Source: Umezawaea endophytica (GTDB taxonomy: Bacteria; Actinomycetota; Actinomycetes; Mycobacteriales; Pseudonocardiaceae). Taken from it: a stretch of 64,000 nucleotides of DNA. The DNA is taken from the NCBI RefSeq assembly GCF_025061645.1, contig NZ_JANYMP010000032.1, positions 1-64,000 of the forward strand, written 5' to 3'. Below, piece after piece: positions 16,420-18,726 of this stretch; position 1 is the stretch's first letter, and every line of letters begins with the position of its first letter. The notes beneath the pieces were generated by a model. It saw only the letters and a program-made list of their open reading frames with translations. It was not told the origin of the DNA and ran no database searches. Made by a program: the position numbers and the translations under genes.

Positions 16420-16493
16420 CGGGGTGTGGCGCAGTTTGGTAGCGTGCTTCGTTCGGGACGAAGAGGTCGCAGGTTCAAATCCTGTCACCCCGA
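16420..16493 (+). tRNA. tRNA-Pro(CGG)
   Basis: The acceptor arms CGGGGTG (16420-16426) and CACCCCG (16486-16492) pair, the discriminator is A16493, the anticodon stem-loop CTTCG-TTCGGGA-CGAAG gives anticodon CGG, and the T-loop GGTTCAAATCC is standard. CCA is not encoded. It is the integration site of the element that follows: its anticodon-to-3' half is duplicated at 18629-18672. Confidence 0.95.
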
Positions 16494-16547
16494 CGGTTGA
16501 ACACACAGGCCAGGAACCTTTCACGGGTTCCTGGCCTGTTCTCGTGT
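16450..16547. repeat. attL: 98-bp direct repeat, tRNA-Pro-proximal copy
   Basis: Base-for-base identical to 18629-18726. It covers the anticodon loop to the 3' end of tRNA-Pro, the following spacer and the tRNA terminator hairpin. This is the target duplication expected for a tyrosine-recombinase element inserted in a tRNA gene. Confidence 0.93.
16505..16539 (+). terminator. tRNA-Pro terminator
   Basis: ACAGGCCAGGAACC (16505-16518) pairs perfectly with GGTTCCTGGCCTGT (16526-16539). The same hairpin is copied at 18684-18718 inside the second direct repeat. Confidence 0.8.
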
Positions 16548-16565
16548 CGACTACTTTTGGCCCGC

Positions 16566-16595
16566 AGTCAGCGGAAAGTCAGCAAACGCGCTGAC
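16566..16595. repeat. Left arm-type repeat pair of the element
   Basis: AGTCAGC occurs at 16566-16572 and 16577-16583, with an inverted GCTGAC at 16590-16595. The 30-bp block matches 18516-18545 at 26 positions, all four differences being transitions. Repeats next to the core at both ends resemble integrase arm-binding sites. Confidence 0.6.
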
Positions 16596-16603
16596 ACGAG
16601 CTG

Positions 16604-17413
16604 TCAGGCCGGATCGCCATCGTCCCCATCGAGCGCCTTCAGGATGCGCTCGTGATCGACCGTGCGGCGCGTGTAGAGCTGCAACGTGGTCGAGGCGTTC
16701 TCGTGCCCGAGGACCCGCTGAGCCATGTTGATCGGCACGCCGTCATCCACGAGCCACGTCGCGTACGAGTGCCGGAGGTCGTGGAACGTGATGCCCTCGG
16801 CACCGAACCGGGCGACGTGGCTGACCACTTGGCGGTAGGTGTCGAAGCGCTGGACGTGCTTCCTGCCGTCGTTGTCGACCCACCGCCCCTCAAACCAGTC
16901 GTCGTCAAAGACGATCTCCCCGAGCAGTTCCGCGCGGACGAGGGACGGCTTCCAGATCCGCCCGCGGAACGAGGTTCGCCGCAGCGGTGTCCCCGCCTCG
17001 TTGGTGAAGATCAGCCCATCGGAGTTCGGCGGGTACTTCTCGATGTGCTCCCGCAGGATCGGCACCAGCCACGAGGGCAACGGAATCTCCTGCCGACCGG
17101 CCCGGCTCTTGGGAAACGGCTTGAACGAGGTCCGGCCGGACACCTCGATGATCGTCCGCACCACCCGCACGACGCGCTTGTCCAGGTCGACGGCGTCCGT
17201 GCAGTTCCCCACCGTCTCGCCCCACCGCTACCCAGTACCGGCAGCCATCGCGACCACGCCGCGGTAGCGGTCCGGCACGGACGGGAGCAGCCGAGACCGG
17301 AGCACGTCCCGTGAGATCACGACCTCGTCCGTGTCCTGAACGCGACGACCGGGTAGCCCCCTTGACCCGCGCGGTTGGGGCGGGGCCAGGTCGACGAGAT
17401 GGCGCGAGGCCCC
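16604..17413 (-). pseudogene. Tyrosine integrase, truncated and interrupted by an amber codon
   Basis: The minus strand from 17212 down to 16604 encodes the catalytic domain of a phage-type integrase: EIPLPSWLVPILREHIEKYP, then HDLRHSYATWLVDDGVPI (HxxR), RVLGHENASTTLQLYTRR (second His and nucleophile Tyr). Reading upstream in the same frame gives SVPDRYRGVVAMAAGTG, then TAG at 17228-17230, then RWGETVGNC. The stop thus replaces the Leu of the usual GTGLRWGE box just before the first catalytic Arg. Only about 60 residues precede it before another in-frame stop at 17414-17416, so the core-binding and arm-binding domains are gone. The gene cannot make an active recombinase. It reads toward the tRNA, the usual placement. 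Confidence 0.88.
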
Positions 17414-17458
17414 TCAGTTCGAGGCAGATGCGCGGGGTCGCCTAGACACGCAGCTCAC

Positions 17459-17474
17459 CAGAACTATTGTTCTG
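17459..17474. promoter_or_regulatory. Inverted repeat upstream of the ParA-like gene, candidate operator
   Basis: CAGAAC-TATT-GTTCTG is a perfect 6-bp-arm repeat 28 bp before the ParA-like ATG. TTGTTC within it could be a -35, with AAACAT at 17488-17493 as a weak -10. Autorepression by a ParA-like protein is conceivable but not shown. Confidence 0.3.
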
Positions 17475-17501
17475 TGCCGACCTCTGCAAACATCTCACGT
17501 C

Positions 17502-18506
17502 ATGAAGACGATCTCGTTCTTTAACCATAAGGGCGGCGTGGGCAAGACCACGATGCTGTTCAACGCCGCGATTGAGATGGGACGTCTCGGGAAGCGCGTC
17601 CTGATGGTCGACCTTGATGCCCAGGCCAACCTCAGTGCCATCTCCCTGCCTGACGAGAAGCTGACCGAGCTGTACGCGCCCGAGGCCGATGCCCTCACTG
17701 TGGCCCACGCCTTCGCTCCCCTAGTGAGCGGCTCTGGCGATGTCGAAGCCCCTGAGGCCATCGAGGTCCGTCCGGGCAGCGTCTGGCTAACTGCTGGTGA
17801 CATCAAGCTGTCGGACTTCGAAGGCATCATGCCCAACGCCTGGACGGAGGCCCTCGCTGGTCAGGAGCGTGGTTTCCGTGTGACCAGCGCCCCCTTCCGG
17901 ATGATCCACGATCTAGGCAAAATCCTGGAAGCCGACTTCGCTTTTGTGGACTTGGGGCCCAACGTCGGAGCGCTCAACCGAGCAGTGCTCTTGGGTAGCG
18001 ACTACCTGATCGTGCCCATGGCCTCCGACCTCTTCTCCCTGCGCGCGCTCCCGAGCGTGGGTGGCAGCCTCACGACCTGGGTCAGGCAGTGGAAAACTGC
18101 TCAGTCCCTTGCGCCCAAGCTGACCTTTGAACTTCCCCGCGGCTTGCCCAAGGTCTTGGGCTACGTCTCGCAGCAGTTCAACGTGTACCGAGGCGAAGCA
18201 ACGATGGCCTTCTCTCAGTGGATCGACATGATGCCTGAGCAGATGAAGGTAGGGCTGCTGGACCCGTTGGCGGAGCACTCCGATGGAGCAGGCGCGACTC
18301 TCGCCGATCCCGCACAGTCGGACGGGCCGAAGGTAGGTGACCTGAAGAACTTCCACAGCCTGGTGCCCTACGCCCAGACGATGAGGAAGGCGATCTTCGA
18401 ACTGGTGGCGGACGAGGTCGTGCGAGGTGGACAGGTCACGCGAGCGCGAGCAAGTGAAGAGCAGTTCAAGGCACTTTGCAACAACATCATCGAACGGGCC
18501 GTCTAG
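17502..18506 (+). CDS. ParA/Soj-like ATPase, cargo of the tRNA-Pro element
   Basis: A 334-residue P-loop ATPase. It begins MKTISFFNHKGGVGKTTMLF, a deviant Walker A with signature Lys10 and P-loop Lys15, then VLMVDLDAQANLS (Walker A') and DFAFVDLGPNVGALNRAVLL (Walker B). The C-terminal third (from about residue 215, FNVYRGEATMAFSQWIDMMP onward) is longer than in plasmid partition ParA. No parB or centromere-like repeats follow, and a 2.2-kb chromosomal remnant does not need partition. Solo ParA-like ATPases with this FFNHKGGVGKTT start are common in genomic islands and their role is unclear. GC is visibly lower than in the flanks, a sign of transfer. The frame is intact, unlike the integrase. 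No good ribosome-binding site is seen; a leaderless or short-leader transcript is possible. Confidence 0.85.
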   Translation: MKTISFFNHKGGVGKTTMLFNAAIEMGRLGKRVLMVDLDAQANLSAISLPDEKLTELYAPEADALTVAHAFAPLVSGSGDVEAPEAIEVRPGSVWLTAGDIKLSDFEGIMPNAWTEALAGQERGFRVTSAPFRMIHDLGKILEADFAFVDLGPNVGALNRAVLLGSDYLIVPMASDLFSLRALPSVGGSLTTWVRQWKTAQSLAPKLTFELPRGLPKVLGYVSQQFNVYRGEATMAFSQWIDMMPEQMKVGLLDPLAEHSDGAGATLADPAQSDGPKVGDLKNFHSLVPYAQTMRKAIFELVADEVVRGGQVTRARASEEQFKALCNNIIERAV

Positions 18507-18515
18507 CTCCGCCAG

Positions 18516-18545
18516 AGTCAGCGGGAAGTCAGCGAACACGCCGAC
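18516..18545. repeat. Right arm-type repeat pair of the element
   Basis: AGTCAGC at 18516-18522 and 18527-18533, followed by AACACGCCGAC. This block mirrors 16566-16595 (26 of 30 bases) and starts 10 bp after the ParA-like stop codon. Confidence 0.6.
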
Positions 18546-18628
18546 ACCAGGCCCGATTGCCCTGCACTCGCCAGCATAAAACGCGATGTCAGAGGTACTG
18601 CTCGGTCTAGGATGACCAGGGGCGGCAA

Positions 18629-18726
18629 CGTTCGGGACGAAGAGGTCGCAGGTTCAAATCCTGTCACCCCGACGGTTGAACACACAGGCCAGGAACCTTT
18701 CACGGGTTCCTGGCCTGTTCTCGTGT
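18629..18726. repeat. attR: 98-bp direct repeat with 3' half of tRNA-Pro
   Basis: Identical to 16450-16547. Bases 18629-18672 are a tRNA-Pro fragment from the anticodon loop to the discriminator, which cannot make a tRNA, followed by a copy of the terminator at 18684-18718. Confidence 0.93.

Follow-up and report, generated by a model that had tools for sequence, protein, structure and literature searches.

A probable stump of a pSAM2-type integrative element, with one intact ParA-like gene, in a tRNA-Pro(CGG) gene of Umezawaea endophytica

The stretch of DNA analysed here, hereafter the window, comprises 64,000 nucleotides of contig NZ_JANYMP010000032.1 (C32 in our numbering) of the 11.0-Mb draft genome of Umezawaea endophytica (GCF_025061645.1), which is labelled G000 where it is compared with other genomes. 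In it, a tRNA-Pro(CGG) gene is followed by a 2.18-kb element lying between direct repeats, which is likely what remains of an actinomycete integrative and conjugative element (AICE) of the pSAM2 family. The features of the locus are as follows.

16420..16494, + strand: tRNA-Pro(CGG) gene, intact (ARAGORN; full tRNA match in relatives)
16450..16494, + strand: attL core, 45 bp, from the anticodon loop to the tRNA end (repeat; the AICEs of G361 and G161 end in the same core)
16495..16547, + strand: element-borne hairpin GGTTGAACACACAGG directly behind the tRNA, a probable terminator, with 14-bp arms and no T-run
16566..16600, + strand: left arm-type repeats, AGTCAGC twice, 11-bp period (other AICEs have similar repeats at similar offsets)
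16604..17347, - strand: tyrosine integrase fragment, the C-terminal ~245 codons, with the N-terminal ~210 codons lost
17349..17424, + strand: right half of an inverted-repeat block known from other elements
17461..17472, + strand: LexA-like box GAACTATTGTTC, 41 bp ahead of parA; a promoter-like match at 17443-17470 overlaps it
17502..18506, + strand: ParA-like ATPase gene, intact, 334 codons (AAA_31, E=1.6e-20)
18516..18550, + strand: right arm-type repeats (sequence repeats)
18629..18673, + strand: attR core, 45 bp (repeat)
18674..18726, + strand: second copy of the element-type hairpin, which would be the left end of a lost second element

An initial annotation of the window had described two exact 98-bp copies 2179 bp apart, the first starting in tRNA-Pro(CGG), and this description is accurate: the copies at 16450-16547 and 18629-18726 are identical at 98/98 positions and lie 2,179 bp apart from start to start. 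Chance cannot account for a perfect match of this length. When we searched the organism's own genome with 16400-16600, the full 98 bp occurred at two places only, namely these copies; short copies resembling the tRNA 3' half (37-42 bp, 88-89%) are present on contigs C9, C49 and C59. Each 98-bp copy runs from the anticodon loop to the end of the tRNA (45 bp), and continues for a further 53 bp that hold the hairpin, whose 14-bp arms are perfect. The 3' 45 bp of the tRNA-Pro(CGG) gene is thus now supplied by the element. The contents between the copies were also correctly listed: a minus-strand integrase fragment (Pfam PF00589, E=8.6e-16), the ParA-like gene (AAA_31) and two related 35-bp repeats, at 16566-16600 and 18516-18550, which are 86% identical to each other. 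These short repeats are real and, judged by their sequence, look like integrase arm sites; they have an 11-bp period at both ends, and their offsets resemble those in the AICEs of G361, G161, G439 and Prauserella muralis that are introduced below.

The integrase is incomplete. It has an in-frame TAG at 17228-17230, and when the translation is continued upstream of the open frame, homology begins at VQDTDEVVISRD, which corresponds to residue ~213 of the G361 integrase, and reaches the C-terminus; relatives, which are ~60-62% identical, have longer open frames. The stop codon alone is no proof of death, because the authors of PMC3218068 think that an int gene with a stop codon is still translated. 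The window's integrase, beyond its stop codon, has also lost its N-terminal half. Directly upstream of the integrase homology begins a ~70-bp block (17349-17424) that is half of an inverted repeat, and the deletion junction with the integrase lies at ~17347-17355. This block recurs in the G001 stump (see below), in at least four other places of the own genome and in G018, where it lies near GntR and RepSA matches; the recurrences (G000 contigs C56, C59, C23 and C15; G001; G018) are 89-94% identical to the window's copy. We read the block as AICE-associated because of its position in G018, and it may be a site for replication or transfer; in loci L044-L048, however, neither RepSA nor TraB gave a match in its vicinity. 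In the simplest reading, one deletion from mid-integrase to this block removed rep, tra and regulators. The ParA-like gene is preserved: its Walker A motif is present (FFNHKGGVGKTT), and its GC content at third codon positions is 0.79, versus 0.92 and 0.96 in two host genes.

We searched for the same site in 60 genomes, the own genome included, of which two of the same genus, G001 and G002, are the most telling. The initial annotation had proposed comparing this locus among relatives. In G002 the site is empty: the tRNA is followed directly by a hairpin that begins GGTTAGAGCAGGTCAGAGCC, and there is no second copy. In G001 the site holds a different insertion of 1.7 kb, with 45-bp repeats at 5108-5152 and 6820-6864 of locus L039; its left hairpin is nearly identical to that of the window, its right hairpin is of the G002 type, and arm-type repeats were seen in the right set only. 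Neither genome thus shows both 98-bp copies without the ParA-like gene, a pattern that had been named as grounds for doubting an integration footprint; there is a single copy in G002, and the copies in G001 are 45 bp long and enclose other DNA. We considered a single ancestral insertion for G000 and G001, and find this unlikely because the right ends, compared by eye, diverge far beyond the flanking gene and tRNA, which are 90% identical; the left hairpins are close, unlike the right ends. In a comparison of gene order (window 14843-19235 with L039, L113 and L111), G001 and G002 have the YqeY-metallophosphoesterase-tRNA-Pro block in inverted orientation with respect to ponA2; the window shares the other order with the outgroup G033.

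Larger elements use this tRNA in other genomes of the family. Relatives of the integrase fragment occur at E<=1e-20 in 43/386 family genomes, the own included. Among 29 integrase loci that we examined, tRNA-Pro(CGG) lies near the integrase in 5, another tRNA (mostly Val) in 20 and none within the examined flanks in 4; a partial tRNA-Pro core is present at one of these last four (L132). Between core copies in tRNA-Pro(CGG), we found AICEs of 14.5 kb (G361), 14.3 kb (G161) and 10.2 kb (G439), recognised by tblastn matches to RepSA, TraB and integrase. The suggested search for ParA homologues beside tRNA genes and integrases led to P. muralis (G066, same family), in which an 11-kb AICE in tRNA-Pro(GGG) encodes integrase, RepSA (E=3e-152), DUF2637, FtsK/TraB, GntR, DUF218 and a ParA that shares 77% identity with the window's and whose gene lies ~220 bp ahead of attR. 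For RepSA, the own genome gave four matches of nearly full length and a further two at contig starts (contigs C45, C28, C2, C8, C46 and C49), so that it probably hosts several AICEs.

These comparisons bear on the extent of the integration footprint. In 6/6 comparators with the tRNA at one end, the repeat stops no more than 2 bp from the tRNA 3' end; its length is 45 bp in G361, G161 and G001, 45 bp with one mismatch in G439, 38 in P. muralis and 48 in Mycobacterium angelicum. The 53 bp past the tRNA end are outside the integration core and the true footprint is ~45 bp. The earlier description of the 98 bp as an integration footprint is therefore wrong in detail, the remainder being a hairpin brought by the element. 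Likewise, its view that the repeat covers half a tRNA plus the terminator holds for the 45 bp of tRNA; the other 53 bp lie outside the core, and calling them a probable terminator draws on the hairpin's position and on like hairpins behind the same tRNA in relatives.

The hairpin arrangement of G002 and G001 suggests that the hairpin comes with the element and that a displaced hairpin marks attR. The window's hairpin is 90% identical over 73 bp to the element side of G001, and a DNA search with 16495-16620 in 150 genomes, the own included, found matches only in G000 and G001. An element-type hairpin at the right-hand copy would then imply a second element at the same site; a second, related element was probably once in tandem here and has been lost except for its first 98 bp. 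A junction of this type is seen in G406, where an arm-like pair is followed by a partial core, then by an element hairpin, arms and finally an integrase, with no tRNA present; by its sequence this arrangement resembles a junction between two elements in tandem, and window positions 18516-18726 have the same order as far as the hairpin. More generally, we observed that each tRNA-Pro(CGG) element carries a hairpin of its own downstream of the core. The motif GGTCAG occurs within ~20 bp of the tRNA end in L117, L118, L119, L122, L132, L133, L041 and L151, and is absent from the hairpins of the window and G001.

We therefore consider it likely that the element is the stump of a pSAM2-type AICE in tRNA-Pro(CGG), decayed by deletion after accretion with a second element. 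In the history that we propose, a pSAM2-type AICE would have entered the 3' half of the tRNA gene by tyrosine recombination. Its attP would have carried the tRNA 3' end together with its own hairpin, the probable terminator, so that the tRNA gene remained complete and kept its termination. Another element, either a related one or a tandem copy of the first, would also have come to lie at the site, its left end being the right-hand 98-bp copy. A single internal deletion, from mid-integrase to the block upstream of parA, would have removed rep, tra and regulators, the integrase would have acquired its stop codon, and the second element would have been truncated just behind its hairpin. What remains, an att-flanked stump with both arm-type sites, would be immobile on its own, but might still be excised by a related integrase that enters the cell, as with a cis-mobilizable element (CIME). 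The suggestion of a trimmed island with one intact gene kept fits this outcome, given the same-tRNA AICEs, the AICE with the same ParA and the loss of the N-terminal integrase, rep and tra.

Several observations weigh against parts of this history. A scan for consensus terminators, which demands a T-run, listed none in 16400-19300. The left-hand element of the G406 junction is seen only as arm-like repeats. In the window, 18727-19182 has no match in any other compared locus and no trace of a second element extends beyond the 53-bp hairpin, so it is this hairpin that speaks for the second element. The hairpin of G002 contains GGTCAG, which we saw by eye on several element sides; it may itself come from an older element, which makes its status as the 'host' type uncertain, although this would be just one more layer at the site. 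No parA match was found in the three same-tRNA AICEs (G361, G161 and G439), and the full-length parA that comes nearest belongs to an AICE with a different integrase in a different tRNA, so that no single intact parent was found. Finally, the P. muralis sequence aligns poorly with the 17349-17424 block.

It is useful to compare the element with known classes. It resembles pSAM2-family AICEs in its tRNA 3'-end core, its integrase beside the tRNA and reading towards it, its arm repeats and its cargo near the far end. However, it is 2.18 kb rather than 10-15 kb, and it lacks what a functional AICE requires: the integrase is a C-terminal part with an in-frame TAG, no ORF (open reading frame) for a replication initiator lies between the repeats (the own genome's six RepSA matches are all on contigs other than the window's), and the ORF list offers no candidate FtsK/TraB translocase, the Pfam scan having covered the integrase fragment and ParA. 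It has att sites and an integrase of AICE type, and larger AICEs use the same tRNA, as would be expected of an AICE remnant; it also has the attL and attR flanks, without recombination and transfer genes, of a CIME. Defective AICEs (DAICEs) as described in PMC9513070 keep traB, whereas no traB-sized ORF or match is present here.

That same source treats partial integrases and cargo between repeats in Streptomyces as AICE decay, and reports accretion at one tRNA. The window element shares with those remnants a partial integrase and cargo between direct repeats, an empty site in relatives and accretion, but it is from another genus and target gene, and its repeat extends through the hairpin behind the tRNA. 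Because AICE decay and accretion have already been published, the window element adds a further case of a known process. The Streptomyces CIMEs XSAM1, beside pSAM2 (PMC4891641), and TR1 of scab Streptomyces (PMC8369830) are similarly att-flanked and in need of another element for transfer; their sizes are 42 and 20 kb and each has a helper element next to it, whereas mobilization of the window stump is only putative. Tandem AICEs with repeats past the tRNA end are described in PMC3218068: Fean6303 of Frankia has three repeats and an 81-bp attL, and is alike in its multiple att copies and in repeats that exceed the tRNA part, but it is a full AICE and, according to that text, still excises.

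We next turn to the ParA, which in the window is probably leftover cargo. As in ParAB systems, it is a ParA ATPase with a Walker A motif. It has near full-length matches to the ParA-like partition proteins of phrog_164 and, as the best solved chain, to PDB 3pg5 ('Uncharacterized protein'), with near full-length homologues in phage Pf1, in Salmonella phages SE1 and ST160 and in plasmids. Unlike the phrog_164 proteins, however, it has no ParB or parS seen beside it; the ORF list has no obvious further gene inside the element, and no search aimed at ParB models or parS was made. The family is rare. At E<=1e-40 there is a match in 20/390 family genomes, the own included, and only P. muralis exceeds 75% identity apart from the own genome; in an order-wide sample, 4/397 genomes, again including the own, have a match at 1e-60. 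A wider contig scan gave 31 ParA loci, including one in M. angelicum at 73%. There, a 2.88-kb unit in tRNA-Gly(CCC) with 48-bp repeats (L157 9453-12410) holds ParA and an ORF of 369 codons for which no Pfam match passed the cut-off; tblastn with AICE integrases found none in this unit. A copy of the same clade (clade A) in G276 (L107) is decayed.

In a tree of 40 ParA proteins, the supported groups coincide with neighbouring genes; because group labels were set by partner, the tree tests whether the partner follows descent. A PIN_12 gene lies 14-48 bp downstream of parA in 12/12 loci of one clade (L158-L169, which are partly near-copies: L159, L160, L162 and L164). An SLFN_AlbA_2 gene lies 0-24 bp upstream in 13/13 loci in the tree and, with four short-flank loci outside it where the distance is 0-391 bp, in 17/17 in total (L073-L077, L102-L106, L108-L110 and L092-L095). 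Neither partner was found in the 3/3 loci of the window's own clade (window, P. muralis and M. angelicum), in twelve distant loci, in nine short-flank loci or beside the decayed G276 copy. The 13 short-flank loci comprise 4 (33-39% identical) with AlbA_2 and 9 (23-29% identical) with neither partner within their flanks. The partner count covers 40 loci plus the window, with L099, L100 and L101 omitted as duplicates of L158, L161 and L167, and the tree omits L107, L180-L186 (short partial matches) and the short-flank loci. For the 20 genomes at E<=1e-40, long flanks were used for 12 and for G066, G102 and G018, and short flanks only for G206, G310, G316 and G329. The Pfam scan of partners covered six PIN genes and a single AlbA_2 gene, and the remaining partners were found by tblastn. 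Judging by titles and the openings of abstracts, we found no description of ParA paired with PIN or AlbA_2 in the literature; the ParA-like and PIN genes of PMC10669575 are not a pair. At L074, a BrxHI-like helicase follows the ParA module.

Regarding regulation, the LexA-like box before parA has counterparts upstream at the own recA and lexA loci (CGAACACCTGTTCG and CGAACCTGTGTTCG), and the M. angelicum parA has CGAACTGGTGTTCG at -75. No exact site was found at a second lexA-like gene (L194), nor in P. muralis or in 28 further upstream regions, which include one duplicate and two regions with one-mismatch sites. Over the compared loci, exact sites occur at a background frequency of 0.007 per 300 bp, but the 64-kb window alone has four. 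Since this idea was prompted by looking at the sequence first, LexA-like control of parA is suggestive only.

It is possible, although we consider it rather unlikely, that ParA is under selection, e.g., as a defence or exclusion gene, and is more than the last undecayed cargo. Two stumps that differ in genus and tRNA both keep it intact, the LexA-like box precedes it in both, sister clades form two-gene modules, and its nonsynonymous divergence (dN) from the two closest full-length relatives is 0.18-0.21 with synonymous divergence (dS) near or at saturation. However, such purifying selection may predate the stump, the G276 copy is decayed, P. muralis has no LexA box, and no partner gene is present at the window locus. 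The PADLOC match of the window's ParA is weak and partial, as are those of three further ParA proteins, and four PIN partners tested had none; we therefore rejected a known defence system. A more specific and still more doubtful idea is that the family is the ATPase core of mobile two-gene modules, with a PIN_12 nuclease or SLFN_AlbA_2, directed against phages or competing elements, and that the window's partnerless clade, under LexA control, outlives its AICE by paying for itself.

A different origin of the 98 bp is improbable but simpler in one respect: in a single integration, attP and attB could have shared all 98 bp, the element having earlier carried off its own species' tRNA-Pro terminator. 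This would agree with the identity of the two copies and would require no lost second element, but both sister species have another hairpin at attB, the window-type hairpin is on the element side in G001, and the repeats of all six comparators end at the tRNA end. Very improbable is the minimal satellite raised by the initial annotation, in which parA together with the att sites would function as one unit that AICE integrases mobilise in trans. Both the core and the arm sites persist, and the M. angelicum unit is a second tiny parA element; against this, there is no complete integrase or other mobility gene, and no set of helper-exploiting genes as in satellites, matches of at least 70% are limited to P. 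muralis, M. angelicum and the decayed G276 copy rather than a family of like-sized copies, the window still has the dead integrase piece that decay predicts, and this fragment is itself the 1 integrase match of the own genome at E<=1e-20. A plain segmental duplication would give identical copies in direct orientation, but can be dismissed, because the repeat starts at the anticodon loop, at the same bases as the att cores of related AICEs, the integrase fragment and arm sites lie where expected and the G002 site is empty.

With the AICE stump as the favoured reading, one tRNA-Pro locus within one family occurs in several states, i.e., empty, with an AICE, with a tandem-type junction and with two different stumps, and so displays AICE decay. 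AICEs may add hairpins of their own, layer upon layer, downstream of a tRNA gene, and it is important to consider that a long perfect repeat need not equal the integration footprint. The more interesting by-product is the ParA-like family with its clade-fixed PIN or AlbA_2 partners, which is a concrete candidate for functional tests.

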